From contig AP028876.1 in assembly GCA_036323355.1 (NCBI GenBank), positions 186,001 through 250,000 on the forward strand: 64,000 bases of DNA. The letters are read 5' to 3'. Shown here piece after piece: positions 3,334 to 23,673 of the stretch. The first letter of the stretch is position 1. Each line of letters begins with the position of its first letter. The notes below the pieces were generated by a model. That model had not been told where the DNA came from and ran no database searches. It saw only the letters and a list, made by a program, of their open reading frames with translations. This DNA comes from Gottschalkiaceae bacterium SANA. GTDB taxonomy: Bacteria > Bacillota > Clostridia > Tissierellales > GPF-1. A program made the position numbers and the translations under genes.

Positions 3334-5448
3334 GTGGATACAAAAGTTAAAAAAATCATAAATAGGTTGGTCAAGCTATTCGACGATGTTTTAAACAAGT
3401 GGATGGATATGATTCTTTCAAGAACTGTGGAAGCAGAAGAAAAGACGGGGTTGGGATATTTACGGAATCAGGCATTTTATAAAATTGCGATTGCATTTGC
3501 TGTATTTGGATTTCTACCTATCTTTTTTGGTGCGGTTATGTTCTTTAGGGAAGGGCTCGTCTTATTTGGGATTGTACAATCTTTGATTTATGTGTTGATT
3601 GTGTTCGTGACGATTAGCAATCGAATCAAGATTTCTAATAAAAGAATGATCTTTATATTAGGTTACTATCTACTTGGTTTAATGCTGTTGCTTACAGTTG
3701 GTCCTAATGGCGCTGGCTTTATTTTGATTGTTTCAATCTTGGCAATTGCCGGTATTTTGTTAAATCGAGATCAAATCATTGGCTTTGTAATTGTTGATCT
3801 CGTTATTTTTGTAAGTTTATCTTACTTGTTTTATTCCGGTGTTTTGCATAATATGGCAATTGATGAGTTTAAGGATTCGTGGGTAATCATGGCCTTGACA
3901 TCTCAAGCATCTGGGATCATCTTGTTGATGATTATTCGGAGTATCTACCAAAATTTAGAAAATATTGCTGAAAACCTGCAGAGAAGCAAGGGAATCATTG
4001 CTGAAAGTGAAAAACAATATCGGAGTTTATTTGAGAGTTCTGGTGTTGGGATCAGCTATTTTACTTCAGACGGGTATGTGTTGTCGGTTAATCGATTGGC
4101 GGCAGCTACGCTTGGTGGGACTGTGAAGGACTTTGAAGGAAAATCAGTGTATGATCTGTTTACGAAAGAAAAGGCAGATCTTCATATGATACGAACCAAG
4201 ATTGTCATGGAAAGTGACCAGACGCAAGAGTATGAAGATCGAATGGTAATTGATTCTAGAGAAAAGTGGGTTGTGAATACATTCAGCAGGATCGTTAATG
4301 ATACGGGAGTGGGGGTTCAGGTTGCTTCATTGGATATTTCTAAGCGTAAGAAGCTAGAGGGCGATTTGATCTATTTGAGCAATTATGATTTTCTTACGGG
4401 TCTTTGCAACCGAAGGTATTTTGAGGAACAGGTAAGAGAAATCGATCGGCAGGAGAATCTACCTTTGTCCTTGATTATGGCAGATGTAAATGGCCTGAAA
4501 CTGATAAATGATTCTTTTGGACATAGAGAAGGAGATCGACTTCTTGTTGAATCAGCAAAATTGCTTAAGTCTGCTTGTGAGGAAAAGGACATTGTCGCGC
4601 GAATTGGTGGGGGCGAGTTTGCCATTCTATTGCCAGGCTCAAATCAACAAGAGGCAGAGGAAAGAAGTAGCAAGATCATTGAAGAAATGGGATATGCGCA
4701 TACCGAGAACTCCTTGCTTTCAATTTCTTTTGGTCATGCGACCAAGGAAGAGGCCGGCGAGGATATTTATGAGATCTATGTGGAAGCGGAAAATCGGATG
4801 CATAGACAAAAAATTTATGAGAGTTCCAGTATGCGGAGCAAGTCGGTTGATGTGATTATGAATAGCTTGTATGAAAAAAGTCAAAGGGAGTTATCTCATT
4901 CAAAGCGAGTCGGATGGTTGTGTGCTCAAATTGCTATGCATATGGGTTTTTCTCAAAAACGGATTAAGTTGTTGGAATTGGCTGGTTTGGTTCATGATAT
5001 TGGAAAAATTGGCGTGGATGAGAAAATACTAAATAAGCCAGATCGACTCAATGATCATGAGTGGGAAGAGATAAAGAAACATCCAGAAGCGGGATGGCGC
5101 ATTCTTTCCTCTGTTCATGAGTTCTCTGAGATTGCGAATTATATATTGGCACATCATGAACATTGGAATGGAAGCGGATATCCGAACGGCTTATCCGGAG
5201 AACAAATTCCTTTGGAAGCTCGGATTATTGCTGTGGCTGACGCATTTGATGCTATGACTTCTTCAAGATCCTATCGGGATCCCATGGAGGTGGAAGCGGC
5301 AATTTCAGAGATCAAGAAATATGCTGGTAGGCAATTTGATCCGGTTGTGGTCGATGTGTTCGTAGATCAGCAAGCTTCGATTATTAGGAAAGTAGATTTA
5401 ATAGAGGGCAGCAATTTTTCTTCTATCAAACAATCGACACAGAAGTAG
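3334..5448 (+). CDS. Membrane PAS-GGDEF-HD-GYP protein (c-di-GMP phosphodiesterase candidate)
   Basis: 704 residues from a GTG start with AAGGTGG seven bases upstream. In order: about six membrane helices (residues 48-200), a PAS domain (about 222-340), a GGDEF domain (about 347-490) and an HD-GYP domain (about 505-690). The HD-GYP part keeps its metal and signature residues: HD at 554-555 in HDIGKIG, HPEAG, and HHEHWNGSGYP from 607, so hydrolysis of cyclic di-GMP is expected. The GGDEF signature reads GGGEF (residues 425-429). The aspartate that cyclases need is glycine, so this domain is probably inactive as a cyclase and may only bind nucleotide. The signal sensed by the PAS and membrane parts is unknown. 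It is monocistronic or weakly linked to the hydrolase 57 bp downstream. Confidence 0.93.
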   Translation: MDTKVKKIINRLVKLFDDVLNKWMDMILSRTVEAEEKTGLGYLRNQAFYKIAIAFAVFGFLPIFFGAVMFFREGLVLFGIVQSLIYVLIVFVTISNRIKISNKRMIFILGYYLLGLMLLLTVGPNGAGFILIVSILAIAGILLNRDQIIGFVIVDLVIFVSLSYLFYSGVLHNMAIDEFKDSWVIMALTSQASGIILLMIIRSIYQNLENIAENLQRSKGIIAESEKQYRSLFESSGVGISYFTSDGYVLSVNRLAAATLGGTVKDFEGKSVYDLFTKEKADLHMIRTKIVMESDQTQEYEDRMVIDSREKWVVNTFSRIVNDTGVGVQVASLDISKRKKLEGDLIYLSNYDFLTGLCNRRYFEEQVREIDRQENLPLSLIMADVNGLKLINDSFGHREGDRLLVESAKLLKSACEEKDIVARIGGGEFAILLPGSNQQEAEERSSKIIEEMGYAHTENSLLSISFGHATKEEAGEDIYEIYVEAENRMHRQKIYESSSMRSKSVDVIMNSLYEKSQRELSHSKRVGWLCAQIAMHMGFSQKRIKLLELAGLVHDIGKIGVDEKILNKPDRLNDHEWEEIKKHPEAGWRILSSVHEFSEIANYILAHHEHWNGSGYPNGLSGEQIPLEARIIAVADAFDAMTSSRSYRDPMEVEAAISEIKKYAGRQFDPVVVDVFVDQQASIIRKVDLIEGSNFSSIKQSTQK

Positions 5449-5505: not shown

Positions 5506-6264
5506 ATGAATAAAGTAACGTATGTGTCCAATGCGGGTGTGCTGCTGGAAGTTGAAGGCAAGAAAATTTTGATCGACAGCTTGTGTGACTCAGTAATGCC
5601 AATATATAAAAATACACCGGAGGAGATCAAAGCTCAGATCCTATGTGGATTGCCACCCTTTGACGATATTGATGTCATGCTTGTTACCCATCACCATAGC
5701 GATCATTTTGAACCCAAGGCCGTGGTAGAATTTTTACAAGGTAACCCTAGAGCTATTTTGGTATCTACACCAGAAACGGTCAAACGAATAAAAAATGAGG
5801 AATCGGATTTCGAGGATAGAAGGTTAATCGCTCCGGCTCTTCAAGTGGGTGAGACGGAAAGACTTGATTTGAATGGCATTCAAATTCAGGTCATAGCTAT
5901 GATCCATGAGGGAAAAGACTTTAAAGATGTGGAGAATTTTGCATATTTAATTGAAGTGAATGGTAAAAGCATTCTTCATCCGGGGGATGCAAAACCAATG
6001 AAAGGAAATTTTAATTATTCAGAGTTAGTTGAGAAAAAGATTAACTTGTTATTGGCTCCTTTTCCTTATGTGGGGATTCCTTCGGGTCACGCAACGATAG
6101 AAAATCAGATTAAACCCGAAAAAATTGTAGCCATCCATCTGCCACATAAAGAACTTGATCAATTCAATTGGATCAGGGGAACCAAGAAAAGTTATGCGAG
6201 GGTAAAGGATCGATTTGTAGAAACGGTTTTTTTCGAAGAGATCGGAGAATCGACGGATTTTTAG
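5506..6264 (+). CDS. MBL-fold metal-dependent hydrolase (UlaG-like)
   Basis: 252 residues, start fixed by AAAGGAGGAA upstream. The metallo-beta-lactamase metal motif HxHxDH is at residues 62-67 (THHHSDH). Further family positions are LHPGDAKP and the terminal histidines in GHATIEN and AIHLPHKE. The size and layout match the short stand-alone hydrolases of the UlaG/UPF0173 type, whose substrates are often unknown. No neighbour points to a pathway. Cytoplasmic, no signal peptide. Confidence 0.88.
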   Translation: MNKVTYVSNAGVLLEVEGKKILIDSLCDSVMPIYKNTPEEIKAQILCGLPPFDDIDVMLVTHHHSDHFEPKAVVEFLQGNPRAILVSTPETVKRIKNEESDFEDRRLIAPALQVGETERLDLNGIQIQVIAMIHEGKDFKDVENFAYLIEVNGKSILHPGDAKPMKGNFNYSELVEKKINLLLAPFPYVGIPSGHATIENQIKPEKIVAIHLPHKELDQFNWIRGTKKSYARVKDRFVETVFFEEIGESTDF

Positions 6265-11056: not shown

Positions 11057-11152
11057 GTTTTAGTAAGAAGCAAATAAAAGAAGAAGGATTGTTTGTGTTG
11101 TTGGGAGGAAGAGGATACAATAATGGCAATTAGGGAATGCAACGGAGACAGA

Positions 11153-13036
11153 ATGAAGAAAACAATTGGTATTTTCGCCCATGTGGATGCAGGGAAAACG
11201 ACTTTTTCTGAGCAAGTCTTGTACCATACGGGGATGATCAAAAAAGCGGGTCGTGTTGACCATAAAAACACATTGTTGGATACGAATGAGATCGAGAGAA
11301 AACGGGGCATTACGATCTTTTCTGACCAGGCCTATTTCTCATATAAGGAAAATGAATATGTTTTAATTGATACCCCGGGGCATGTGGATTTCTCTTCGGA
11401 AATGGAGAGGACAATAGCGATCTTAGATGCTGCCATTGTGATTATCAGTGGTATTGACGGGGTGCAAAGCCATACGGAAACGGTCTGTGACCTCTTAAAA
11501 CACGCTAAGGTGCCCCTTTTGTTTTTTATCAATAAAATGGATGCGCATCATGCTAACAAAGAGAATGTTATGGGTTCACTCAAGAAGAATTTTGACACAT
11601 GTATCGATTTTGATAGCCTAGATTATGAATCCTTGGCAGAACATTCAGAAGCATTGATGGAGGCCTACTTTGAAGACAGACTCGATGACAATTTATTTGT
11701 TAGTGGTGCTAGAGATTTGTTTCAAGATGGTTTGATCTATCCGGTTTTGTCAGGCTCGGCCTTGAAAGGTCAAGGAATCGATCGGTTTTTACAGCTACTG
11801 GATCAATTGACTGTTTCTCATGACCAGAAGAAAGAGTTGTCTGGAATTGTGTATAAGGTAAGAGTTCATCAGGGCGTCCGTCATGCCTTTATTAAATTGA
11901 CAGGCGGTATACTGAAGGTGCGGGATCAAATTGGCGATGAAAAGGTGACGGGAATCAAAAGGGTATTTGGTGGAAAGTTGGAGAGTATACCCGAGATGGT
12001 TGCTGGAGAACTAGCTACAGTGACGGGCCTATCCTTGAAGGTGGGCGATGTTTTTGGGACGAATCAGAAATTTAGTTATTCGGTTGTGCCGACCTTGCGA
12101 AGCAAATTGATTTTCGATCAAGCACTCAGCCTAAAGGATGTTTATCGAGATATGAAGATATTAGAGGAGGAAGATCCGGCCTTGAAGGTCATGTACTCAC
12201 CAAAGAAAGAGATCACTCTTGGGGTGATGGGGACCATTCAACTTGAAGTTTTAGAAGCCTTGATACCAGATCGATTTGGCTACCCCGTATCCTTTGAGGT
12301 CCCCCAAATTCTCTATAAGGAAACCATTGCGGACGAAGTTGTGGGCTGCGGGCATTTTGAACCATTAAGACATTATGCGGAAGTCATTCTAAAAATACAG
12401 CCGGGCAAAAGAGGTACAGGTATTGTGTTTTACAAGGAATGTTCGGTGGAAGACCTGACTGACGGTCAGCAGAATCTTATTCGGCATCATATCTTTGAAA
12501 AAGAGCATCGGGGAATTTTAACAGGGTCAGAAATTACTGATTTAAAAATTACCTTGATATCGGGTCGTGCCCATAACAAGCATACGGAGGGTGGTGACTT
12601 TCGACAAGCGACGATCCGTGCTTTGCGTCAAGGCCTAGAGCAAGCAAAGAGTGTTTTGCTAGAACCCATGTATGAAGCCGTGATTCGAGTCCCTTTTACC
12701 GATATGGGGAAGGTGCTAACGGATATAACTACACGAAACGGAAGGGCTGAAACCGTCCAGGACGGTGATGATGTGATCATTAGGGCTCATGTGCCGGTCT
12801 TTAGTTTTATGGATTATTCGATCAGGTTAAGGAACATCACCAAGAGTAGGGGACGTATGAAACTCAAGATGAGTGGGTATGAACCTTGTCACAATACAGG
12901 TGATGTGATTGAACAAATTGCTTATGACAAAGTAACAGACAATGAATATCCATCCTCGTCAATATTCTGTTCCAGGGGAAAAGGCTATACCGTACCCTGG
13001 GAAAACGCAAAGGATTATATGCATTGTTTGAAATGA
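11153..13036 (+). CDS. TetM-like ribosomal-protection-type translation GTPase
   Basis: 627 residues from the ATG at 11153, chosen because GGAG lies five to six bases before it and the family begins MKxIxIGILAHVDAGKTT. Upstream in-frame starts (11123, TTG 11093) would add up to 20 residues. The G motifs are AHVDAGKT (9-16), the switch II DTPGH (73-77) and NKMD (127-130), followed by EF-G-like domains II-V. Size and order match the Tet(M)/Tet(O) family (639 residues), which releases tetracycline from the ribosome. Chromosomal paralogues of unproven resistance function are common in Clostridia, and there is no tet-type leader peptide or mobile element here. It might confer resistance or serve translation in another way. 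Confidence 0.88.
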   Translation: MKKTIGIFAHVDAGKTTFSEQVLYHTGMIKKAGRVDHKNTLLDTNEIERKRGITIFSDQAYFSYKENEYVLIDTPGHVDFSSEMERTIAILDAAIVIISGIDGVQSHTETVCDLLKHAKVPLLFFINKMDAHHANKENVMGSLKKNFDTCIDFDSLDYESLAEHSEALMEAYFEDRLDDNLFVSGARDLFQDGLIYPVLSGSALKGQGIDRFLQLLDQLTVSHDQKKELSGIVYKVRVHQGVRHAFIKLTGGILKVRDQIGDEKVTGIKRVFGGKLESIPEMVAGELATVTGLSLKVGDVFGTNQKFSYSVVPTLRSKLIFDQALSLKDVYRDMKILEEEDPALKVMYSPKKEITLGVMGTIQLEVLEALIPDRFGYPVSFEVPQILYKETIADEVVGCGHFEPLRHYAEVILKIQPGKRGTGIVFYKECSVEDLTDGQQNLIRHHIFEKEHRGILTGSEITDLKITLISGRAHNKHTEGGDFRQATIRALRQGLEQAKSVLLEPMYEAVIRVPFTDMGKVLTDITTRNGRAETVQDGDDVIIRAHVPVFSFMDYSIRLRNITKSRGRMKLKMSGYEPCHNTGDVIEQIAYDKVTDNEYPSSSIFCSRGKGYTVPWENAKDYMHCLK

Positions 13037-13060
13037 TACGAATCATATTTATGGATACAA

Positions 13061-13093
13061 AAAGGCCACCAGTTTGTCTGGTGGTCTTTTTTT
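13061..13093. terminator. Terminator between convergent genes
   Basis: AAAAAGGCCACCAG, loop, CTGGTGGTC and a T-run; usable in both directions between the GTPase and the sigma-54 activator. Confidence 0.8.
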
Positions 13094-13103
13094 GCAATAC
13101 GGA

Positions 13104-14753
13104 TTACTTGTTGCGTCCAGGAGTTTCGATCTTGTACTTACGGATACGATATTGCAAGGATTGCCTCGATAAGCCCAATTGCTGTGCGGCATTTGTGATG
13201 TGGTAGTTGTGCTCTTTCAAGACGAGTTCAATTAAATTTTTCTCAAGAGAATTATTGATATCACTTAATGAATTGGGCGTCTTGATATGCGAATCCTGAG
13301 AAAGAGGAATGGCAGCCTCAAGTTTTTTAGCGATATAGGATGGTAGCAATTGCGTAGATAATCGTTCTGTATCGAAATCGGCTGCAATAAAAGTAGATTC
13401 AAGGATGTGGCGTAGTTCTCGAACGTTGCCAGGAAAGTCATAGCTTTGCAAAAGGTGCAAAAACTCATCGCTTCCGCCCTTGATATTGTAATTGAATTTC
13501 CGATTAAAAAGTTGCGAGAAATGATGAATCAATACGGGTATATCACTTTTTCGCTCGCGAAGGGGTGGGATCTCAAGTACAAAAGTAGAGAGGCGATAGT
13601 ATAAGTCATCCCTCAATTCATTGTTTTCGATACATGTTAAGGGGTCTTTATTTGTTGAGCTGATGATACAGCATTGAACGTCGATTTGCTTGTTGCTACC
13701 TAATTTCATGATTTTTCGTTCCTGGAGAGCACGCAGGAGTTTCGCTTGCAAGATTATATTCATGCTGTTGATTTCATCTAAAAAAACGGTGCCATCTTTT
13801 GCTTCTTCAAAGATTCCTATGGAATCGACAGCGCCGGTATAAGCACCTTTGGTTGTTCCGAAGAAGATGCTCTCCATTAATGTTTCTGGAATGGCAGCGC
13901 AGTTGATTGCGATAAAAGGTTTGTCTGAACGTTCACTGTTTTGGTGAATGGCATGAGCGAACAATTCTTTTCCGGTACCGGTCTCTCCAAATAACATGAT
14001 ATTGGCATTCTTTTTTGCTGCCTTGAAGGCAATTTTTTTTGTAAATAGGAATTTTTCATTTTCGCCTACTAAATCGTCTAAGGCATTGCTGTTCTCGGAA
14101 TGTGTTACAAAGTTTTGTAAAAGTCTGGATTGATTAGCAATGTTTTCACTGATTAAATCGGAGTTTTGATAAATGGAATAGACAGCTTCTAGCTCACCAT
14201 GATCGAAGTGTGGAAAATTGTCAGAAATGACATTCACATATTGCCCATCGGACATTTGATACTCGACTTTATGGTTGCATAGTGGTTTTTTCGTTTTCAT
14301 GACATAGTCATGGGGTGCATTTGGATCATGAACGGCATAGATGCTATTACGCTTGATATGATCATCGGCAGAATAATTGGCGGCTTCCATATCTAAGGCA
14401 GTTTTATTCACAAACAGTACGAAGTCATCTTTATCGGCCACAAAGATACCTTGTTTGATATTATTCATAATTTCTTCGTAGAGATCGATTTTTATAGTCA
14501 ATTTTTTTTCATGATTTGGTAGAAATACATAAGCATCCATCGCATCGATTGTGAAAGATGAGACTGTATAAAAATGATGATCGATTTCAATTTCAAAGAG
14601 TTTATCTCGCTGCCGAGAGAACATAAATTTTTTTGTATGGATATAGGTGATGAGAGCTGGGTTCTTTTCAGCACTCAGGTTGCTATAAATAAATTCATCT
14701 TTGAGAAAAACAATAACCGGATGGGGAAAATTCTCGTAAGCAAAATGTTGCAT
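13104..14753 (-). CDS. Sigma-54-dependent transcriptional activator (RocR-like, PAS-AAA-Fis)
   Basis: 549 residues; AAGGAGGATTGCC before the ATG. An N-terminal sensory part with a PAS-like region (about 90-190) precedes an AAA+ domain: Walker A GETGTGKE (256-263), the sigma-54 contact loop GAYTGA (303-308), Walker B GTVFLDEI (321-328) and the R-finger region RDDLYYRLS. A Fis-type helix-turn-helix is at about 518-540 (NAAQQLGLSRQSLQYRIRK). The loop reads FFGTTKGAYTGA where most relatives have LFGxxxGAFTGA. No receiver domain, so it senses a ligand directly, as RocR and related amino acid catabolism activators do. It is divergent from the YheO/antiporter/aminotransferase unit, whose -24/-12 promoter it almost certainly activates. 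Confidence 0.93.
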   Translation of the reverse strand: MQHFAYENFPHPVIVFLKDEFIYSNLSAEKNPALITYIHTKKFMFSRQRDKLFEIEIDHHFYTVSSFTIDAMDAYVFLPNHEKKLTIKIDLYEEIMNNIKQGIFVADKDDFVLFVNKTALDMEAANYSADDHIKRNSIYAVHDPNAPHDYVMKTKKPLCNHKVEYQMSDGQYVNVISDNFPHFDHGELEAVYSIYQNSDLISENIANQSRLLQNFVTHSENSNALDDLVGENEKFLFTKKIAFKAAKKNANIMLFGETGTGKELFAHAIHQNSERSDKPFIAINCAAIPETLMESIFFGTTKGAYTGAVDSIGIFEEAKDGTVFLDEINSMNIILQAKLLRALQERKIMKLGSNKQIDVQCCIISSTNKDPLTCIENNELRDDLYYRLSTFVLEIPPLRERKSDIPVLIHHFSQLFNRKFNYNIKGGSDEFLHLLQSYDFPGNVRELRHILESTFIAADFDTERLSTQLLPSYIAKKLEAAIPLSQDSHIKTPNSLSDINNSLEKNLIELVLKEHNYHITNAAQQLGLSRQSLQYRIRKYKIETPGRNK

Positions 14754-14805
14754 GGCAATCCTCCTTGTTGGAATAGATATATTTTATCGTGTTTCTTGGA
14801 ATATA

Positions 14806-14841
14806 GCAAAAAAATTTTGCGCAAACGCAAAGCTGTTTTGC
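14806..14841 (+). promoter_or_regulatory. Two upstream activator sites GCAAA-N5-TTTGC
   Basis: Identical inverted repeats at 14806-14820 and 14827-14841, offset by exactly 21 bp (two helical turns). The inner halves also form TTTGCGCAAA at 14816-14825. They sit between the divergent activator and the -24/-12 promoter, their centres about 71-92 bases upstream of the -24 GG. This is the usual architecture for enhancer-binding protein sites. Confidence 0.75.
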
Positions 14842-14903
14842 ACCTATATATGAAAAAATCATTATTATAATAAATTATTATAGAAATCAGCGCATTTCAC
14901 TCT

Positions 14904-14919
14904 TGGCACGGGACTTGCA
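14904..14919 (+). promoter_or_regulatory. Sigma-54 promoter (-24/-12)
   Basis: TGGCACGGGACTTGCA matches the consensus TGGCACG-N4-TTGCA completely, with the GG at 14905-14906 and the GC at 14917-14918. Transcription should start near 14930, about 20 bases before the ATG of the YheO-type gene. Confidence 0.9.
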
Positions 14920-14951
14920 ATAGATAGTTGTGACAGAAAGGTGGTAACAGG

Positions 14952-15620
14952 ATGAGGAAGGAATTGAGTTTTGAGCCATATTTGGAATTCGTTGATTTTC
15001 TTGGTGAAGTTCTTGGAGAAAATGTTGAAATCGTTCTACATGATCTGACAAATTTGGAGGAATCAATTATTGCCATCAAAAACGGACAGATCAGTGGTCG
15101 CCGACTGGGTGGACCTGTAACGGATTTGGTTTTGCGAATGATGAAGGATGTTGAATTTAAAGACATCAATTACGTGACCAATTACAAGAGCGAATCAAAA
15201 AATGGAAAAATGCTGCATTCAGCAACCTATTTGATTCGAGATGATCAGAAACGTGTATATGGAATGATGTGCTTTAACTTTGACTATAGCGAGCATTATG
15301 CCATTCAGCAATCATTAGATAGAATTTTACCGAAATTTATGAGCAACAAGGAGACTGAAGAGAAACAAATGAATGGAATTTCTGAGAAATTAAATGATTC
15401 CATTGAGAACTTGGTAAATGGTTCAATTCAAGAGTTGACTTTCTATCATGAGTTTGTTCCTCAAAGATTGGTTCAGGAAGAAAAGATTGATATTGTTCGA
15501 GGTTTACATGACAAAGGTGTTTTTTTGATGAAAGGCGCAGTGTTGGAAGTTGCTTTGCAATTGCAGATGTCTGAAGCAACGGTATATCGATATTTGTCGA
15601 TGATCAAAAGATCAGAATAA
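14952..15620 (+). CDS. YheO-type PAS/helix-turn-helix regulator
   Basis: 222 residues. The N-terminal half (about 5-115; LGENVEIVLHDL, ISGRRLGGPVTDL) is the YheO-like PAS domain, and the C-terminal segment (about 170-220; LHDKGVFLMKGAVLEVALQLQMSEATVYRYL) is the matching helix-turn-helix. DauR, which controls D-arginine catabolism in Pseudomonas, belongs to this family. It is the first gene behind the sigma-54 promoter, so the unit has a second control layer. The gap of 181 bases to the antiporter gene leaves room for it to act locally. Confidence 0.88.
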   Translation: MRKELSFEPYLEFVDFLGEVLGENVEIVLHDLTNLEESIIAIKNGQISGRRLGGPVTDLVLRMMKDVEFKDINYVTNYKSESKNGKMLHSATYLIRDDQKRVYGMMCFNFDYSEHYAIQQSLDRILPKFMSNKETEEKQMNGISEKLNDSIENLVNGSIQELTFYHEFVPQRLVQEEKIDIVRGLHDKGVFLMKGAVLEVALQLQMSEATVYRYLSMIKRSE

Positions 15621-15801
15621 GTTGTAACTCCATGGGTAGTCTGGCCAGATGCCGTTGGATGCAAATATAGAGACATGTTGAGAATTTTTTTTCGACTCAA
15701 GTACAGGATTTGGAATTAGAGGGTGTCATCTCTGTAAATAATATACAGGGTGACAAAGAAGGTATTAAGAACTTATACTTATCTTACGAAGGAGTGTATT
15801 T

Positions 15802-17250
15802 ATGGGAACGAAAACAAAAACGGAAAACGGGAAAAGACTACCAAGTAAAATTGAAGCATTTTCGGTTCTTATTTTAGTTATAGCGGGAGTAAGTCTTGGC
15901 AGTAAATTTGGTGTAAGTATTGGCTCAGTATTGATTGTCAGTGCGGTGTATTCAATTATTATTGGAATGAGATGTGGATATTCATATAAAGAACTCGAAG
16001 ATGGAATTGCAGAAAAAATAACAGATATTTTACCCGTATTTTTCATTCTCTTGTCAATTGGAGTATTGATTGGAACCTGGATGTTTGCTGGAACAATTCC
16101 AACTGCAATTTATTATTTAGTGAAATTGGTTGATCCGCGAATGGTGATTGTGTTTGCATTTGTGGTTTGTGCTATTGTAGCCACAATCATTGGAACGTCT
16201 TGGGGTACAGCAGGAACAATTGGCGTTGTGATGATTGGCTTGGCTCAAGTATTGGATGTGCCAATGCCAGTTGTGGCAGGTGCCGTAATAGCAGGCTCTC
16301 ACTATGGTCAATTGATTTCACCTATGTCTGACATGGTTGCCATATCTTCATCAATGGCAAAAGTGGATCCGGCAGAAATGATTAAGCGAACACTAATCGT
16401 TGTTATTCCAAGCACCATTGTCAGCTTGATTCTTTACACTTTTATTGGTTTTACATCGGGCGGTGGAGCTGGTTCATCGGTTATGGTTGATGAACTATTG
16501 AAAACGCTTAGTGCAACATTTAATATTAATCCAATCGTATTGTTGCCATTGGTGTTTATTATGTTCACAAGTGCAAAAAAGTATCCATCTGCACCTTCCA
16601 TGATGCTTTCTGGATTTTTGGCAATTATCTTGGGTGTGATCTTTAATGGATTTTCATTGGGTGATGGTCTTACAGCTGCTTTTGACGGATTTAATGCAAG
16701 TATGACGCATATTGATCCGAGTACATTGATGCCTCAAGTGGCTTCTTTGATTAATCGAGGTGGTATGCTGACCATGAGCTATGTGATTATTTTGCTCTTC
16801 TGCGCCATGATGTTTGCGGGTGTTGTATCAAAAATTGGATGTCTTGAGGTCATTGTTAGTTCTTTGGCTAAAAATGTGAATTCAATCGGAGGATTAACAG
16901 TTGCGGTAATTATTTCAGCCCTTATTACTGCGGCGACTACCTTGCAGGCTTACTTAACAATCATTGTACCTAGTGAATTATTTAAGCAAAAGTATATTGA
17001 AAACGGATATCATCCAGTGAATATGGTTGTAGCAGCACAAACCATTGGTGCCATTATTATGGTTTGCTTCCCATGGGGTGATACGGGTCTTTATATGGCA
17101 GGAGTTACTGGTGTGCCAACTCTAAGCTATATCCCATATGCATTTTTCTGCTGGGGTACAGCGATCATTGCCATTGTTTTTGCTTTCTTGAAAATCGGTG
17201 TAAAAAAGCTTGATCCAGCAGAAATCGCCGAGTTTGAAAAAACGGCATAA
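15802..17250 (+). CDS. NhaC-family Na+/H+ or amino acid antiporter
   Basis: 482 residues with about 11-12 hydrophobic segments; GAAGGAG before the ATG. Conserved stretches such as GTSWGTAGTIGVVMIG, AGSHYGQLISPMSDMVAISSSMA and FPWGDTGLYMAGV are those of the NhaC/ArsB-superfamily antiporters. Family members next to amino acid catabolic genes often exchange amino acids or their products rather than only sodium and protons (for example malate/lactate or arginine/ornithine type carriers). Here it lies between a YheO-type regulator and a PLP enzyme, so a substrate/product antiporter is likely. Confidence 0.9.
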   Translation: MGTKTKTENGKRLPSKIEAFSVLILVIAGVSLGSKFGVSIGSVLIVSAVYSIIIGMRCGYSYKELEDGIAEKITDILPVFFILLSIGVLIGTWMFAGTIPTAIYYLVKLVDPRMVIVFAFVVCAIVATIIGTSWGTAGTIGVVMIGLAQVLDVPMPVVAGAVIAGSHYGQLISPMSDMVAISSSMAKVDPAEMIKRTLIVVIPSTIVSLILYTFIGFTSGGGAGSSVMVDELLKTLSATFNINPIVLLPLVFIMFTSAKKYPSAPSMMLSGFLAIILGVIFNGFSLGDGLTAAFDGFNASMTHIDPSTLMPQVASLINRGGMLTMSYVIILLFCAMMFAGVVSKIGCLEVIVSSLAKNVNSIGGLTVAVIISALITAATTLQAYLTIIVPSELFKQKYIENGYHPVNMVVAAQTIGAIIMVCFPWGDTGLYMAGVTGVPTLSYIPYAFFCWGTAIIAIVFAFLKIGVKKLDPAEIAEFEKTA

Positions 17251-17272
17251 AGCAAGAAAGAGTAAAGGATAA

Positions 17273-17338
17273 AACCAGATTTTCGCCGCTGTCAAAAAGC
17301 GTATATTTTAGCTGGCTGGCAGCGGGGTCAAACTGGTT
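17273..17338 (+). other. Intercistronic two-stem structured element
   Basis: Outer arms AACCAG (17273-17278) and CTGGTT (17333-17338) enclose inner arms CCGCTGTCA (17286-17294) and TGGCAGCGG (17317-17325, one wobble pair). No T-run follows at once. It could protect or process the mRNA between the antiporter and aminotransferase genes, or bind a ligand or protein. No known riboswitch was recognised. Confidence 0.5.
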
Positions 17339-17445
17339 CAATAGGTATTGATAAAAAGTAATACAAGAAATAGAAAAGAAAATCTTTGCAAAAAATAGGA
17401 AAATTTAATCAACTAGACGTGCAGTCACAGAAGGGATGAGCGAAA

Positions 17446-18636
17446 ATGAAATTTAATTTTGACAAAAAAGTAGATCGTTATAACACCGCTTCGCTAAAAT
17501 GGGACAATGTAAAGAAATACTATCCAAATGCGAAGGAAGATCCATATATTATGTGGGTAGCGGACATGGATTTTAAATGTGCGCCATGTATTCTGGATGC
17601 CTTGCATAAACGAGTCGATCATGGTGTTTTTGGATATTCAGCTGAAGGAGAAAAAGAGTATGCTCGAGTTATCCATGATTGGATGATGAGAAGACACAAT
17701 TGGGATGTGGATAAAGATGCAATCTTCTTTTCACCGGGTATTCTTGCGGCGTTGGGTTATCTCATTCAGTTGTTAACGAAACCGGGTGAGGGCATTATTA
17801 TCCAACAACCTGTTTATTATCCATTCTCTTATTTGCCAAAGGGAAATGAACGTAAAGTGGTAGATAATTCTTTGGTTTGCAAGGATGGGAAATATGAGAT
17901 GGATTATGAAGATCTCGAAGAGAAGTTGAAGGATGACAACAATAAAATGTTGATTCTTTGTAATCCACATAATCCGGTTGGACGTGCTTGGACCAAGGAA
18001 GAATTAGGCAAGTTTGTTGCCTTGTGCAAGAAGTACAACAAGATTATTATTTCAGATGAGATTCATTTTGATTTGACAAGAACGGGAGTAACACATACGG
18101 TATTGGAAACGGTGGATCCGTCTTATAAAAACAACATAATTACATGTACGGCACCAAGCAAGTCGTTCAATCTTGCGGGATTGCAGAATTCCAATATCAT
18201 TATCAATGATCCGAAATTGCAAGAGGAGTGGCGATTCTTTACTCGATACATTGCCCATCTAGATGGTCCTAACACCTTTGGTGCGATTGCTAATCTAGCT
18301 GCATACGAAGAGGGTGAGGAATGGTTGGATGAAGCCAGAAAATATATCGATGGGAATATTTCATTGATGCAAGAATACATTACTAAGAACTTGCCAAAAC
18401 TAAAAATGATTGACTGCCAAGCAACCTATTTGACTTGGGTGGACTTCAGTGGTTACGGTTTACCGGATCAAGAAGTGGATCGAATTCTTATTGAAGAAGC
18501 CGGTGTCTTGCTTGATAACGGATTAGCCTTCGGCCAACCGGGACAAGGCTATCAACGATTCAATGTTTCTTGCCCGCGATCAACGGTTGAAGGATCACTT
18601 CAAGCGATTAAATCAGCATTTGCAAAGTACGAATAG
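17446..18636 (+). CDS. MalY/PatB-family PLP aminotransferase or C-S lyase
   Basis: 396 residues, typical family length. PLP lysine K239 in SKSFNLAG, phosphate-loop partner D204 in SDEIHFDL, CNPHNPVGR at 172-180, and the N-terminal VADMDF motif that marks the MalY/PatB branch. The family includes cystathionine beta-lyases (releasing pyruvate, ammonia and a thiol) and aminotransferases. Third gene of the sigma-54 unit, so it presumably acts on the imported amino acid. A second copy at 53006 shares the fold but has a different regulator. A terminator follows. Confidence 0.9.
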   Translation: MKFNFDKKVDRYNTASLKWDNVKKYYPNAKEDPYIMWVADMDFKCAPCILDALHKRVDHGVFGYSAEGEKEYARVIHDWMMRRHNWDVDKDAIFFSPGILAALGYLIQLLTKPGEGIIIQQPVYYPFSYLPKGNERKVVDNSLVCKDGKYEMDYEDLEEKLKDDNNKMLILCNPHNPVGRAWTKEELGKFVALCKKYNKIIISDEIHFDLTRTGVTHTVLETVDPSYKNNIITCTAPSKSFNLAGLQNSNIIINDPKLQEEWRFFTRYIAHLDGPNTFGAIANLAAYEEGEEWLDEARKYIDGNISLMQEYITKNLPKLKMIDCQATYLTWVDFSGYGLPDQEVDRILIEEAGVLLDNGLAFGQPGQGYQRFNVSCPRSTVEGSLQAIKSAFAKYE

Positions 18637-18648
18637 AGTACAATGAAT

Positions 18649-18693
18649 AAAAATAGTCGACTTTCTCTTGATTGAGGAAGTCGACTATTTTTA
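18649..18693 (+). terminator. Rho-independent terminator of the sigma-54 unit
   Basis: Fifteen-base arms AAAAATAGTCGACTT (18649-18663) and its complement (18678-18692). It may also serve the minus-strand gene that ends at 18709. Confidence 0.85.
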
Positions 18694-18708
18694 TGGAATG
18701 TAGTAGCT

Positions 18709-19044
18709 TCAGTTTGAGCTTTTGCCATGAAAAAAGGTGTTCCAATTGTCCTTGCTTTTGTAAAGAGCCAGCAGGATATAGATACAAGCGGTGAAGAAGC
18801 CCAGAATCATCATCAACAAGGTCCAGCCGATGGCGAATGATTTATTTTTTTCTCGGTGAAAGATCCACATCGAAAATAAGGTAAATCCGACATAAAGATC
18901 AATTAAAGACATGACTCCCCATGGGTTTTGGAAAAGCTCTTGTCCGTCTTTGATGAAATCACCATTTATAAATCCGTTGGCCAGGCCATAGGTCATTGCG
19001 AGCAAGCCAATCCAAGTGATGGTTTTTGCCACTTTCATATTCAT
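18709..19044 (-). CDS. Small four-helix membrane protein (DUF1475-like)
   Basis: 111 residues, AAGGAGGAATACAG before the ATG. Three to four membrane helices. The segment NPWGVMSLIDLYVGFTLFS followed by W-x-x-x-R-E resembles the DUF1475 group of small membrane proteins; I recall this family only by pattern. Function unknown. Stands alone between terminator-bounded units. Confidence 0.75.
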   Translation of the reverse strand: MNMKVAKTITWIGLLAMTYGLANGFINGDFIKDGQELFQNPWGVMSLIDLYVGFTLFSMWIFHREKNKSFAIGWTLLMMILGFFTACIYILLALYKSKDNWNTFFHGKSSN

Positions 19045-19241
19045 CTGTATTCCTCCTTATTCAATCATATTAGTAAGGATACCCAAATATTCTCGGATTG
19101 GGGTTTGAAAATAAGAAGCAGGTGGTGAATTAGGCATTTCATTTATGCAGAAGACGGAGAAAGTCAAGACGTTGGACTAGGGGAGGCTGCTCAATGATTG
19201 TGAAAGTCGGGTGTGGGTACGTGTTATTTGGAGGTGTCAAT

Positions 19242-19892
19242 ATGAGTAAACCAAAAATAACGGCATTTGAAAATGGCCCGTTCTTGATTCAAAACATTGA
19301 AAAACTTGTAAATTCGAAGGACGAAGAATTGGAATGTACCTCAGAGACCTATCTATGCAGATGTGGTGGCTCTGCAGACAAACCCTATTGCGATAAAAGC
19401 CACGAGACCAATGGTTTTAATAGTCAAAATGAAGAAAAAGACCTACATAATGAAACCATTGAATATAAGGGAAAAGAGATTACAATTTTCGACAACCGAA
19501 ATATTTGTTCGCATCGCGGGTATTGCAGTAAGGAACTCTCAACCGTTTTTACAGATGGAGTACCCTGGATCAATCCGGATGGCGCTTCGGTCGAAGAAAT
19601 CATTGCTATTTGTGATAAATGTCCGTCGGGTGCTTTGTCCTACGCACTTCATGAAAGTGAGCGGAATCAGGGTGCGGAAGATGAGATTCCTACGGTGCGA
19701 TTGGCAGAGCGTCATTTCGGTTATCATGGACCTTATGACGTATCGGGGAAGATTGAGCTGGATAGCCCGGGTAGCCGATCGCCAGAATCACCAGTAAAAA
19801 TGACATTGTGCAGATGCGGTCACTCAAAGAATAAACCGTTTTGCGATGGCCAACATTATAATCATCAATTTGAAGACGAGAAGAACGAATAA
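19242..19892 (+). CDS. CDGSH - 4Fe-4S (Fer4_19) - CDGSH iron-sulfur protein
   Basis: 216 residues from the ATG at 19242, chosen because GGAGG stands nine bases before it. Two CDGSH 2Fe-2S sites flank the protein: CRCGGSADKPYCDKSH (C39, C41, C50, H54) and, near residue 190, CRCGHSKNKPFCDGQH. Between them (about 75-145) lies a divergent single-cluster ferredoxin domain with cysteines in NICSHRGYCSKEL and CDKCPSGAL. Such mixed proteins are known in bacteria, but their partners and roles are not established. Storage or transfer of electrons or Fe-S clusters is inferred. It sits 216 bases before the ferredoxin-dependent oxidoreductase operon but has its own transcription unit. Confidence 0.88.
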   Translation: MSKPKITAFENGPFLIQNIEKLVNSKDEELECTSETYLCRCGGSADKPYCDKSHETNGFNSQNEEKDLHNETIEYKGKEITIFDNRNICSHRGYCSKELSTVFTDGVPWINPDGASVEEIIAICDKCPSGALSYALHESERNQGAEDEIPTVRLAERHFGYHGPYDVSGKIELDSPGSRSPESPVKMTLCRCGHSKNKPFCDGQHYNHQFEDEKNE

Positions 19893-19925
19893 AAGACATG
19901 AATGATTTAGGTTCAATATATGGAG

Positions 19926-19965
19926 GCATGGTATTCTCGAGAGAGGCTATCATGCTTTTTGCTGT
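19926..19965 (+). terminator. Weak terminator hairpin
   Basis: GCATGGTA and its imperfect complement TATCATGC are followed by TTTTTGC, 34 bases behind the CDGSH gene. Confidence 0.45.
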
Positions 19966-20028
19966 TTGTTTTATAAAATGGGAAGTGTGAGTGGTAGTGT
20001 GATCAGAATGATGATTGAAAACGCTTGC

Positions 20029-20108: not shown

Positions 20109-20654
20109 ATGATTCAAGTCAGATGGCATGGACGCGGCGGCCAGGGAAGTTTTACGATCGCACGTTTACTAGGGGCTGCAGCGGTTCTTTGCGAGGGCAA
20201 AAACGCCTTGGCGTTTCCAACCTTTGGTCCAGAGCGAAGAGGGGCTCCGGTTCTTGGATTTACCAAAATATCCGATAATAAAATCCATGACCGAAGTGAG
20301 GTTCAAAATTGTGATTACGTAGTTGTTCTGGATGAAACGCTAATTGATGGGAATACGGCAAAAGGCCTGACTTCTGATGGTTGTATCTTGATCAATACAA
20401 AAAAAGTTCAGCAGTACCAAGAGATGTTTGACTGCAAAGTGATTGGGTTGGATGCAACAGATATTGCCCTTCGCCATATCGGCAGACCCATTACCAATAC
20501 AGCCATGCTGGGGGCCTTGATTGCAGAGTCTAGTATGTTGAAAATTGAATCGGTGAAAGTAACGATTGCATCAGAGATGCGTGAGAACTTGGTGGAGAAA
20601 AATCAAAATGCATTAATGGAAGCCTATGAAATGATCAAGGGGGAAGAGGCATGA
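20109..20654 (+). CDS. 2-oxoacid:ferredoxin oxidoreductase, gamma subunit
   Basis: 181 residues from the ATG at 20109, supported by GGAGG before it; an earlier in-frame ATG at 20025 lies upstream of the promoter. RWHGRGGQGSFTIARLL at the N-terminus and FPTFGPERRGAPV are the gamma-subunit hallmarks of pyruvate/ketoisovalerate:ferredoxin oxidoreductases. The enzyme oxidatively decarboxylates a 2-oxoacid with CoA to acyl-CoA, reducing ferredoxin. Gene order gamma-delta-alpha-beta is that of the four-subunit type. The exact 2-oxoacid cannot be read from the sequence. Confidence 0.92.
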   Translation: MIQVRWHGRGGQGSFTIARLLGAAAVLCEGKNALAFPTFGPERRGAPVLGFTKISDNKIHDRSEVQNCDYVVVLDETLIDGNTAKGLTSDGCILINTKKVQQYQEMFDCKVIGLDATDIALRHIGRPITNTAMLGALIAESSMLKIESVKVTIASEMRENLVEKNQNALMEAYEMIKGEEA

Positions 20655-20962
20655 GACCAAAGGTAAAGTCTTATAAACAACCAAGTAAGCTATCGGAATA
20701 TCCGAGCACACCTGCCTTTGAATCGGGTCACTTGGTATCAAAAAATGCGGGTTGGAGAACCTTCAAACCAGTTGTAGACGCAGAAAAGTGTGTTGGATGT
20801 TTACGCTGTTATCTGGTGTGTCCAGATGGTGTGGTCGCGCGAACAAAAGACAATAAAGTTGAAATTGAGTATGATTTTTGCAAGGGCTGCGGTATTTGTG
20901 CCCATGAGTGCAAGGTAGAAGCGATCACCATGGTGAAGGAGGCTGATGAAGATGAAATCTAA
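20651..20962 (+). CDS. 2-oxoacid:ferredoxin oxidoreductase, delta (ferredoxin) subunit
   Basis: 103 residues, overlapping the gamma stop by ATGA. Two 4Fe-4S clusters: C47/C50/C53/C57 (CVGCLRCYLVC) and C77/C80/C83/C87 (CKGCGICAHEC). It carries electrons from the TPP site to external ferredoxin. Confidence 0.95.
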   Translation: MRPKVKSYKQPSKLSEYPSTPAFESGHLVSKNAGWRTFKPVVDAEKCVGCLRCYLVCPDGVVARTKDNKVEIEYDFCKGCGICAHECKVEAITMVKEADEDEI

Positions 20963-22136
20963 TCGAAAGTTCGTTTCGGGAGACGAGGCGGTTGCATTAG
21001 GCGTTCGTTTGGCAAGACCCCATATTATTTCAGCTTATCCAATTACACCACAGACCATTGTTGTTGAGCGATTAGCGGATTTTGTGGAAGATGGTAGCTT
21101 GAAAGCAGAATATATGCATGTTGAATCGGAACATTCAGCCATGGCAGCTGCAATGGGAGTCAGTTCAGTTGGTGCTCGTGCATTTACTGCTACTTCATCT
21201 CAGGGTCTTTTGCATATGGCTGAGTGTGTGCATTATGCCAGCGGTGCAAGGTTTCCCATTGTCATGATGAATGCCAATCGATCGATTGCTGTACCCTGGA
21301 GTATTTATGGGGATCAGCGAGATTCCTTGAGCATGCTGGATTCTGGATGGATTCAAGTCTATGTGGAAGATGCCCAGGAAGCCTTGGATATGATGATTCA
21401 AGCCTATAAGGTGGCGGAAAATCCAGAGGTAATGACACCCTTTATGGTAAACCTGGATGGATTCGTTTTGACCCATACCTATGAACCCATTGAATTGCCT
21501 GAGCAAGAAATGGTAGATCAGTTCTTACCTATGTATCAAACAGGCAACAAGATGTCCATGGATGAGCCGAAAAGCTTGTGCTTTAGCACCTCGCCCGCAG
21601 ACAATCAAGAATTTAAGGTGATGCAACATATGGCTATGGAAGGCTCAGTGGATGTGATCCGTCAAGTGGATGCTGAATATGGCAAAGTTTTTGGACGCTC
21701 CTATCATGGGTTGACAGAAAGTTATCGGTGTGATGATGCAGATGCCGTATTGATGACCCTTGGTTCTGTGACCGGAACTGTAAGATGCGTTGTCGACGAA
21801 CTGCGAGAAAAAGGTTTTAAGGTTGGCGTATTCAAGATTCGTTTTATGCGTCCCTTCCCCAAAGACGAAGTGATGGCCTTGGGCAAGGCGGTATCCAAGC
21901 TAGGTGTACTTGAAAAGAATATCTCTTTCGGAAACGAAGGTACTGTATTTACCAATGTGAATTCCGCGCTTATGGCCTTGGATACCAAGGTGCAATCGAA
22001 GAATTATGTTGGTGGACTCGGTGGTCGAGATATTACAAAAGACCATATCCGAGCGATCTTTATGGATCTATTGAATCATGATCGATTTGAAGAACGAGTA
22101 GAATTTATCGGAATGGGGTGTGAGATCAATGAATAA
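20952..22136 (+). CDS. 2-oxoacid:ferredoxin oxidoreductase, alpha subunit
   Basis: 394 residues from the ATG at 20952, nine bases behind AAGGAGG; an ATG six bases earlier is too close to it. The segment AYPITPQTIVVERLADF and ESEHSAMAAAMGVS belong to the pyrimidine-binding/transketolase-like half of the TPP enzyme. Overlaps the delta gene by 11 bases and the beta gene by 8, so the subunits are translationally coupled. Confidence 0.93.
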   Translation: MKSNRKFVSGDEAVALGVRLARPHIISAYPITPQTIVVERLADFVEDGSLKAEYMHVESEHSAMAAAMGVSSVGARAFTATSSQGLLHMAECVHYASGARFPIVMMNANRSIAVPWSIYGDQRDSLSMLDSGWIQVYVEDAQEALDMMIQAYKVAENPEVMTPFMVNLDGFVLTHTYEPIELPEQEMVDQFLPMYQTGNKMSMDEPKSLCFSTSPADNQEFKVMQHMAMEGSVDVIRQVDAEYGKVFGRSYHGLTESYRCDDADAVLMTLGSVTGTVRCVVDELREKGFKVGVFKIRFMRPFPKDEVMALGKAVSKLGVLEKNISFGNEGTVFTNVNSALMALDTKVQSKNYVGGLGGRDITKDHIRAIFMDLLNHDRFEERVEFIGMGCEINE

Positions 22137-23025
22137 TTTTAACATACGTCCAAAAGACTTAACTGATCAGGAATACTTTTATGGTCACAAGGCATGTGCA
22201 GGGTGCGGTGCGACAATTGCCGTCCGTTTGGCCTTAAAAGTGTTGGGAGAACGAACCTATTCGGTTCTTCCGGCCAACTGCATGTCGGCGGTTAGTTTTA
22301 TTTATCCGCAAATGGCATTTACGACGAATGCCATTATCTCGCCTTTTGCATCTACGGGTGCCATGTTATCGGGTGTTGCTGCCGGAGCGAGAGCCTTGGG
22401 AATTAAAGATTTTCAGACCGTTGGATTTGCCGGAGACGGCGGTACAGCTGATATTGGCTTCCAGGCATTGTCTGGCGCCATTGACCGGGGTGATGATATC
22501 ATCTATATCTGCTATGATAATGAAGCTTATATGAATACAGGAATTCAAAAGAGTGGTTTGACTCCCTATGGAACAAAAACAACGACTTCTCCAGCGGGTG
22601 AGAATCTGCCGGGTGCGGTGACACAGAAGAAAAATATGTTTGAAATTGTCGCTGCCCATGGAATTGCTTATGCTGCAACAGCAAGTATTGGTTATCCCAA
22701 TGACTTCTTGAGAAAACTCAATAAAGCAAAAGAGGTCAGGGGTCCGGTTTTTCTTCACATTCTGGCAAGCTGCCCAACTGGATGGGGATCTAAGACAGAA
22801 CTGACGGTTGAATTGGCAAAAGAAGCAGTGGATTCAGGTCTCTGGTATTTAGCCGAGTATGAAAATGATGAATTCACCTTAAATAAGAATCCGAAAGAAT
22901 TTATTCCTGTGGAGGAATATCTTTTTAAGCAAGGGAGATTTAAACACTTGAAAGAAAAAGATATCAATGTAATAATTGAACAAAGAGATAAAAAATGGGA
23001 AAAAATACGTAAATCATGGCTGTAA
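22129..23025 (+). CDS. 2-oxoacid:ferredoxin oxidoreductase, beta (TPP-binding) subunit
   Basis: 298 residues from the ATG at 22129; a GTG at 22120 is also in frame. ACAGCGA near residue 20 contributes cluster or TPP contacts. The TPP motif is GDGGTADIGFQ followed by YDNEAYMNTGIQKSG. Pyruvate, branched-chain or aromatic 2-oxoacid specificity is open. Coupling to a GntR regulator and placement among amino acid genes favour an amino-acid-derived 2-oxoacid. Confidence 0.92.
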   Translation: MNNFNIRPKDLTDQEYFYGHKACAGCGATIAVRLALKVLGERTYSVLPANCMSAVSFIYPQMAFTTNAIISPFASTGAMLSGVAAGARALGIKDFQTVGFAGDGGTADIGFQALSGAIDRGDDIIYICYDNEAYMNTGIQKSGLTPYGTKTTTSPAGENLPGAVTQKKNMFEIVAAHGIAYAATASIGYPNDFLRKLNKAKEVRGPVFLHILASCPTGWGSKTELTVELAKEAVDSGLWYLAEYENDEFTLNKNPKEFIPVEEYLFKQGRFKHLKEKDINVIIEQRDKKWEKIRKSWL

Positions 23026-23037
23026 AAGGAGTCTGAA

Positions 23038-23673
23038 ATGCCTCAAGACAACATGGAAATAGTTTCGCTATTATTGGATCGGATTATTGAACTTGACTAT
23101 CAGCCAGGTGAATTGCTGAATGAAAAGAAGTTGATCGAAGAGTTTCAGGTCAGTCGGACACCGATTCGGGAAGCGCTCTTGAAATTATCCGAAAAAGGCT
23201 TTGTGAAGATGGTGCCAAGAGTGGGGACTTATGTCTCACAGGTGGATATTCGAGAGATCAAATATGCCTATGAAGTCAAAAAGAATCTAGAAGTTTTGGC
23301 TTGTGAATTGGCTGCTGAAAGAGCGTCTGAAGAGCAAGTTCAAGAGCTTCTTGCGATTGTTGACCGCATAGAAAAATATCGTCCACGATTGGATTATAAA
23401 AAATATATCCATGATGATTACTTGTTCCGAAAGATCATTCGCGAGGCATCGCAGAATCCATATCTTCAAAACTATTTGGAAGAATTAAACAGCAAGACGA
23501 TCCGGTTTGTTAATTATGTGGAATATAAAATGGAAAATCCGGAATGGTATAACGAATCCTTGCGAATTATGGCGCAAGCCATAGAAATCCGCAATTCTGA
23601 ACTCGCGGGTAGGGAAATGAAGAATCATGCGGAAATTTTTTTAAATGAACTTTCCAAGCGATTTTTTGTCTAA
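23038..23673 (+). CDS. GntR-family regulator (FCD-type) of the oxidoreductase operon
   Basis: 211 residues, 12 bases behind the beta subunit gene and therefore the fifth gene of the operon. Winged helix at about 8-70 (EKKLIEEFQVSRTPIREALLKL) and an all-helical FCD ligand domain (about 75-205) with candidate metal histidines in YIHDDYLF and NHAEIF. The family binds carboxylates and releases DNA on binding. The perfect palindrome at 20057-20088 would make it autoregulatory. A terminator follows. Confidence 0.9.
   Translation: MPQDNMEIVSLLLDRIIELDYQPGELLNEKKLIEEFQVSRTPIREALLKLSEKGFVKMVPRVGTYVSQVDIREIKYAYEVKKNLEVLACELAAERASEEQVQELLAIVDRIEKYRPRLDYKKYIHDDYLFRKIIREASQNPYLQNYLEELNSKTIRFVNYVEYKMENPEWYNESLRIMAQAIEIRNSELAGREMKNHAEIFLNELSKRFFV

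Follow-up and report, generated by a model that had tools for sequence, protein, structure and literature searches.

A probable YheO operator within the sigma-54 control region of a yheO-nhaC-patB operon in Gottschalkiaceae bacterium SANA

The window analysed here is a stretch of 64,000 nucleotides (AP028876.1, positions 186,001 to 250,000) from the genome of Gottschalkiaceae bacterium SANA, which consists of one contig of 3.49 Mb. Within this window, the gene for a sigma-54 activator, or enhancer-binding protein (EBP), is transcribed divergently from yheO, nhaC and patB, with two enhancer sites, a 15-bp palindrome and a -24/-12 promoter in between (Table 1). Sequence comparison indicates that the palindrome is probably the operator of the YheO-type regulator, and that the motif TTATYATNATRATAA, derived from it and its relatives, is probably an operator for some members of the clostridial YheO family but not for the whole. 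We hold with moderate confidence that the locus forms a substrate-induced unit for amino-acid import and beta-elimination under both EBP and YheO; binding, the sign of YheO action and the substrate we infer. The best reading of its origin is that sigma-54 control was added onto an older YheO-PatB unit.

The yheO product matches PAS_6 at 130.2 bits (cutoff 27) and HTH_22 at 63.7 bits (cutoff 29.6). The inner perfect palindrome TTATTATAATAA has no other copy in the window, is invariant in four genomes (the window's own, two congeners and G020, which belongs to another family of the same order) and lies between the enhancer sites and the promoter. Two yheO-patB units without this EBP, L110 (genome G161) and L111 (the congener G001), carry TTATTATGATAATAA and TTATTATGATGATAA, respectively, and there the palindrome overlaps the -10 element of a TTGACA- or TTGACT-N17-TATTAT promoter. 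The motif TTATYATNATRATAA was built from L110, L111, L079 and the module loci, which are the four with a sigma-54 site upstream of yheO, and a match was defined as at least 14 of 15 positions within 250 bp upstream of a yheO gene. The set comprised 47 yheO loci, namely the best 30 of an order search, the loci of a class search and a few larger stretches, from which duplicates, alignments shorter than about 120 residues and loci with less than 150 bp upstream had been dropped.

Matches precede 16 of the 47 yheO genes against 0.94 expected from shuffles, a count uncorrected for kinship. Without the seven loci that shaped the motif, 10 of 40 match, compared with a mean of 0.75 for 104 permuted palindromes (maximum 8, for a near variant). 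The 15 loci of the class search were retrieved once the motif had been set down, and 5 of them match. As a control, only 5 of 269 other open reading frames of at least 200 aa in the fetched stretches have a match upstream. In the longer yheO loci, 16 of the 32 matches at 14/15 (some of them overlapping) and seven of the nine perfect matches fall within 350 bp of the yheO start. The window's own genome has no exact copy of TTATYATNATRATAA and 16 places with one mismatch, versus seven for the reversed control.

On the sigma-54 side, GCAAA-N5-TTTGC occurs just twice in the 64 kb, with starts 21 bp apart; shuffled sequences of that length contain 0.20 copies on average, and two copies in none of 100 shuffles. 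Across the whole genome the pattern is found at 10 places (two for the reversed control) and as a 21-bp-spaced pair at this locus alone, while in a class sample of 391 genomes, which contains no congener of the window, the exact pair is present in one, the window's own. The original prediction had described two identical sites at this distance: the spacing and the ten fixed bases agree with it, but the N5 spacers differ (AAAAT and GCTGT). Paired enhancer sites with TGCAAAA..TTTTGCA-like arms, resembling the GCAAA arms seen here, are used by RocR of B. subtilis. The promoter claimed earlier is complete, TGGCACGGGACTTGCA being the sole mismatch-free TGGCACG-N4-TTGCW among the 13 matches listed at up to two mismatches (8.06 expected), and a looser exact -24/-12 pattern gives two matches against 0.31 expected. 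The divergent activator, the three genes and the closing terminator were likewise recovered. With the transcription start taken at about 14930, the enhancer centres lie at about -117 and -96 and the palindrome at about -64. An AAA+ domain with Walker A and loop, a -24/-12 element before the target and an rpoN gene in the genome (C1:2372522-2373838, 430.1 bits) together mark EBP as a sigma-54 activator.

The same layout is found in relatives. Each of the three genus genomes encodes EBP at no less than 83% identity. The two congeners have both sites in exact form and at the same spacing, the promoter, all three genes in the same order, and terminator-like hairpins after patB. In G020, EBP is 45% identical and the divergent yheO 54% identical over the part compared, and yheO is followed by genes for an MFS carrier, a PatB relative (37%) and a BCCT carrier. 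The G020 control region aligns with that of the window almost gap-free: counted from its start, the first site is 99 bp from the promoter (98 in the other three genomes), and the palindrome 43 bp (42 in the window). Since sites, promoter and divergence recur in both congeners exactly, and in G020 in degenerate form at nearly the same spacing, the conservation in relatives by which the locus was to be judged has been found. The G020 yheO itself (L064, 10137-10813) is broken near its start, either genuinely or through an assembly error.

Several observations nevertheless weigh against these readings. The enhancer sites of G020 are degenerate (one and two mismatches), leaving no exact match in that genome, and an MFS carrier stands there in place of NhaC. 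In the window the enhancer lies 63-98 bp from the promoter, closer than the 100-250 bp given in passages of PMC6615313 for most enhancer sites in Clostridiales. As to the motif, the strictest count is 8 of 38, obtained by also dropping L074 and L085, whose partial matches had been glimpsed before the motif was fixed; two of the five control-gene matches are perfect; the counts ignore kinship among loci; the window palindrome scores 14 of 15 positions and that of G001 13; and the palindrome includes TATAAT, which is compatible with a promoter role. Moreover, 31 of the 47 yheO genes have no match at 14/15, and none of the 16 one-mismatch places in the window's own genome is near its four other yheO genes, so the operator rule is not general.

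In the proposed mechanism, EBP would occupy both enhancer sites on one face of the DNA, their 21-bp distance equalling two turns. Once its N-terminal sensor had been set off, it would loop to the sigma-54 polymerase at the -24/-12 promoter and open yheO-nhaC-patB. YheO made from the operon would then bind the palindrome, about 64 bp before the start and within DNA that must loop. It would most likely repress, either as negative feedback or as a second, substrate-dependent lock; repression is favoured because the palindrome covers the -10 element in the two sigma-70-type relatives and because deletion of CfiR (Cj1387c), a YheO-type regulator, raises its RidA-like neighbour according to passages of PMC4519771. 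The carrier would import the substrate, which PatB would convert via 2-aminoacrylate to ammonia, pyruvate and a thiol or H2S. The double control that had been called uncommon gains support from the probable operator, and since only 4 of the 47 yheO loci, the module loci, have a sigma-54 site upstream, the combination is uncommon in this sample.

The most serious competitor, which we regard as rather unlikely, makes YheO a co-activator required alongside EBP, both having to be bound for expression. The operator would suit such a role in lying upstream of the promoter without overlapping it, and its distance from the promoter is kept within 1 bp in G020, but the placement over the -10 element in L110 and L111 is that of a repressor, and CfiR represses its neighbour. 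Less probable still is that the palindrome is just an AT-rich element of an ordinary promoter, or a bend assisting loop formation, with YheO acting elsewhere and the operon under EBP alone. The palindrome does have TATAAT on both strands, most yheO genes lack it as counted above, and bending proteins often act between enhancer and promoter. Yet the enrichment at yheO over other genes and over permuted palindromes argues for a tie to the regulator, and EBP has another promoter candidate, conserved in four of four genomes, for which reason the palindrome was also set aside as the EBP -10 element.

PatB scores 423.8 bits with the C-S lyase model TIGR04350 (cutoff 340); of the 25 models shown, no other reaches its cutoff. 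The best solved relatives of PatB are a putative pyridoxal-phosphate (PLP) transferase, the PatB cystathionine beta-lyase, cystalysin and a C-S lyase. Its SKSFN aligns with SKTFN of 6qp3 and 1c7n, its PVYYPF with PVYTPF and PVYYPF of the same two structures, and its C-terminal R-x-N with both; we take these residues to be the PLP lysine motif and the active-site tyrosine and arginine. A sulfur amino acid is the likely substrate; the D-amino acid suggested as an alternative was dropped for want of support, PatB and the tryptophanase-type neighbours described below pointing to beta-elimination. For the carrier, the family assignment as NhaC type stands (PF03553), but the NhaC equivalog TIGR00931 is missed at 357.3 bits (cutoff 370) and the carrier is replaced in G020; a single-sequence query against PDB sequences gave nothing at E up to 0.01. 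In three related yheO-patB units the carrier resembles transporters of amino acids: L140 has a match to AA_permease_2, L111 exceeds the agcS cutoff, and L110 matches a model for amino-acid transporters, though below its cutoff. It is accordingly improbable that PatB is an aminotransferase or other non-sulfur enzyme and the carrier a plain Na+/H+ antiporter, in a unit for sodium or pH stress, even though NhaC is the carrier's best score, just under its cutoff, and PLP fold I enzymes switch reaction easily.

Beta-eliminating lyases recur around motif-bearing yheO genes. In the four such loci that were scanned (L141, L142, L152 and L155), the neighbours include Beta_elim_lyase proteins (PF01212), above the tryptophanase subfamily cutoff and below the equivalog cutoffs of TnaA and tyrosine phenol-lyase. 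A tryptophanase-type or PatB lyase is near yheO in 13 of 16 motif loci versus 10 of 31 others (Fisher p = 0.002, uncorrected for kinship, and with most loci spanning 1.5 kb on each side, so that lyase neighbours may be missed). On the YheO tree, the seven PatB-linked genes need two changes (6.7 when shuffled), the 16 tryptophanase-linked genes need five (13.5 when shuffled), and the four module genes form one clade with support 100/96. A RidA gene is near 14 of the 47 yheO loci, but as a motif-linked partner it was rejected, showing no association (6 of 16 versus 8 of 31, p = 0.5). Passages of the RidA literature describe its clustering with cystathionine beta-lyase and tryptophanase, enzymes able to form 2-aminoacrylate (PMC4433059), and a PAS-HTH regulator gene adjoining RidA and aminotransferase genes (PMC7221256). 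Together with the lyase neighbours of yheO, this makes beta-elimination the common theme. We tentatively put forward, as a wider possibility that we would not yet back, that clostridial YheO proteins are dedicated controllers of beta-eliminating PLP lyases, recognise a common operator, TTATYATNATRATAA, and respond to either the substrate of the lyase or 2-aminoacrylate; the sigma-54 activator added here, with the operator in its loop, would then create an AND-NOT gate. In two yheO-RidA-patB units, PatB is fused to a C-terminal AhpC-TSA/redoxin domain (L110 7996-9696 and L140 8405-10117).

EBP matches Sigma54_activat (3.3e-59), the AAA lid and the Fis helix-turn-helix (HTH) in Pfam, and its alignment gives Walker A as GETGTGKE and the loop as GAYTGA, a functional variant of GAFTGA listed in PMC6615313 passages. 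Of the PAS-AAA-Fis architecture proposed for it, AAA and Fis hold; PAS falls just under the Pfam cutoff of 21.8 in the window protein (19.8 bits for the whole protein, 21.6 for the N-terminal part), with PAS_8 matched in all four orthologues scanned (E up to 1). An identity with the proline reductase activator PrdR was rejected at 327.6 bits (equivalog cutoff 795). AlphaFold models were low in quality (pLDDT 61.3 and 45.5) and were not used. With the N-terminal part as query, E < 1e-20 was reached in just 4 of 249 genomes of the order and, within the 391-genome class sample, in the window's own genome alone. This rarity would fit a chance neighbourhood in one lineage, with EBP serving another target, but the sites and the -24/-12 element stand between EBP and operon in four of four genomes from two families (exact in three, degenerate in G020), which makes such a coincidence highly improbable. 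Around the closest other relatives of EBP, which share 35-38% identity across the aligned part, eight loci of 9-15 kb were examined: YheO, NhaC, RidA and tryptophanase gave no match at E up to 1e-5, and PatB gave a single distant one (23%, L115).

The EBP gene itself probably has a sigma-70-type promoter whose -35 element overlaps enhancer site 1. The scan match is weak (two candidates against 1.3 by chance, with a poor -35, TTGC..), and the assignment is made because the layout is conserved in four of four genomes, with a 17-bp spacer, a -10 of TAAAAT, TAGAAT, TAGAAT or TATAAT, and a -35 that reads as the first half-site of the enhancer in reverse. Bound at site 1, EBP would mask its own -35 and would therefore limit its own level.

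Table 1. Features of the EBP-yheO locus, in window positions
Feature	Position	Strand	Evidence
EBP, sigma-54 activator: PAS-like N-terminus, AAA+ with GAYTGA loop, Fis-type HTH	13104..14753	-	Pfam and alignment
Probable sigma-70-type promoter of the EBP gene, TTGCTA-17-TAAAAT	14781..14809	-	Scan; same layout in 4/4 genomes
Enhancer site 1, GCAAAAAAATTTTGC	14806..14820		Exact in both congeners, 1 mismatch in G020
Enhancer site 2, GCAAAGCTGTTTTGC	14827..14841		Exact in both congeners, 2 mismatches in G020
Probable YheO operator, TCATTATTATAATAA	14859..14873		Inner perfect palindrome TTATTATAATAA at 14862-14873
Sigma-54 -24/-12 promoter, TGGCACGGGACTTGCA	14904..14919	+	Pattern scan; -24/-12 site in 4/4 genomes
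yheO-type regulator (PAS_6 + HTH_22)	14952..15620	+	Pfam, above cutoffs
NhaC-family carrier (PF03553)	15802..17250	+	Profile scans
Stem-loop in nhaC-patB spacer, without U run	17273..17338	+	Fold versus shuffles
patB, PLP-dependent C-S (beta) lyase family	17446..18636	+	TIGR04350; aligned with 6qp3 and 1c7n
Terminator-like hairpin after patB	18647..18694		Fold, z = -9.9

Within the operon, the nhaC-patB spacer folds into a stem-loop (z = -2.88, with one of 200 shuffles equally good) that is perhaps an mRNA processing or stabilising element; by eye, the stem is partly retained in the two congeners. A riboswitch between the genes was discarded, as the five Rfam matches in 12000-20000 (E up to 5) are all under their gathering scores. 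Downstream of patB in all three genus genomes are genes for a four-subunit 2-oxoacid:ferredoxin oxidoreductase and a GntR-type regulator (20109-23673 in the window), separated from patB by terminator-like hairpins and in the window also by two more genes; the oxidoreductase would suit pyruvate produced by PatB. On the far side of EBP, 11093-13036 encodes an EF-G-like GTPase (GTP_EFTU, EFG_IV and EFG_C domains), which is perhaps akin to ribosomal-protection (Tet) proteins. Elsewhere in the genome, a second EBP-like gene (L059, C1:2716000-2726000) adjoins RidA, a paralogue of NhaC (44% identity) and a gene resembling serine dehydratase (below model cutoffs); on visual inspection, the AAA+ domain of the EBP-like protein has no normal Walker A. 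Two copies of GCAAA-N5-TTTGC occur in L059: that at 3903-3917 was rejected as an enhancer site, being read as a terminator stem and put down to chance, and that at 5685 falls at the start of the L059 EBP gene.

YheO-type regulators are widespread, yet little about the DNA site and the signal of these proteins seems settled; for Cj1387c, passages of PMC4519771 state that the signal, if any, is not known. With a concrete 15-bp candidate operator associated with beta-lyase genes, what part of the family does can be put to a direct test. If true, the operator would connect tryptophanase-type and C-S-lyase genes in anaerobes with a single regulator family, and the EBP-yheO locus would be a naturally occurring example of a local operator placed within a sigma-54 loop. 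The parts are of known kinds. A YheO operator, a tie to beta-lyases or a grafted sigma-54 layer, and hence the operator and the combination proposed here, were not found in the open-licence PMC literature searched; the terms 'binding site' and 'palindrom' are absent from the main texts of PMC4519771, PMC10717218 and PMC10931765, as is 'footprint' from that of PMC4519771.

In Clostridiales it is well established that sigma-54 governs the breakdown of amino acids, as passages of PMC6615313 describe. Likened by description, the closest case is XcyR with malY-pepT-hyp (PMC6615313, Table 1), likewise a sigma-54 activator over an operon with a MalY/PatB-type gene; that table names no YheO or NhaC in it, and 'YheO' is absent from the main text. 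CdsR, which controls the cysteine desulfidase gene cdsB (PMC6615313, PMC5767170), is similarly likened by description as an EBP governing sulfur-amino-acid breakdown, but its operon is cdsB alone in Table 1 of PMC6615313, unlike the three-gene unit here. PatB, MalY and cystalysin C-S lyases belong to the same family as the enzyme of this locus, by curated model and best solved structures, and differ in regulation. The nearest counterpart of YheO is CfiR (Cj1387c), a PAS6-HTH regulator that likewise controls its adjoining gene; unlike the EBP-yheO locus it has no sigma-54 layer in the passages of PMC4519771 considered, and its partner Cj1388 is RidA-like, as in several of the related yheO loci.

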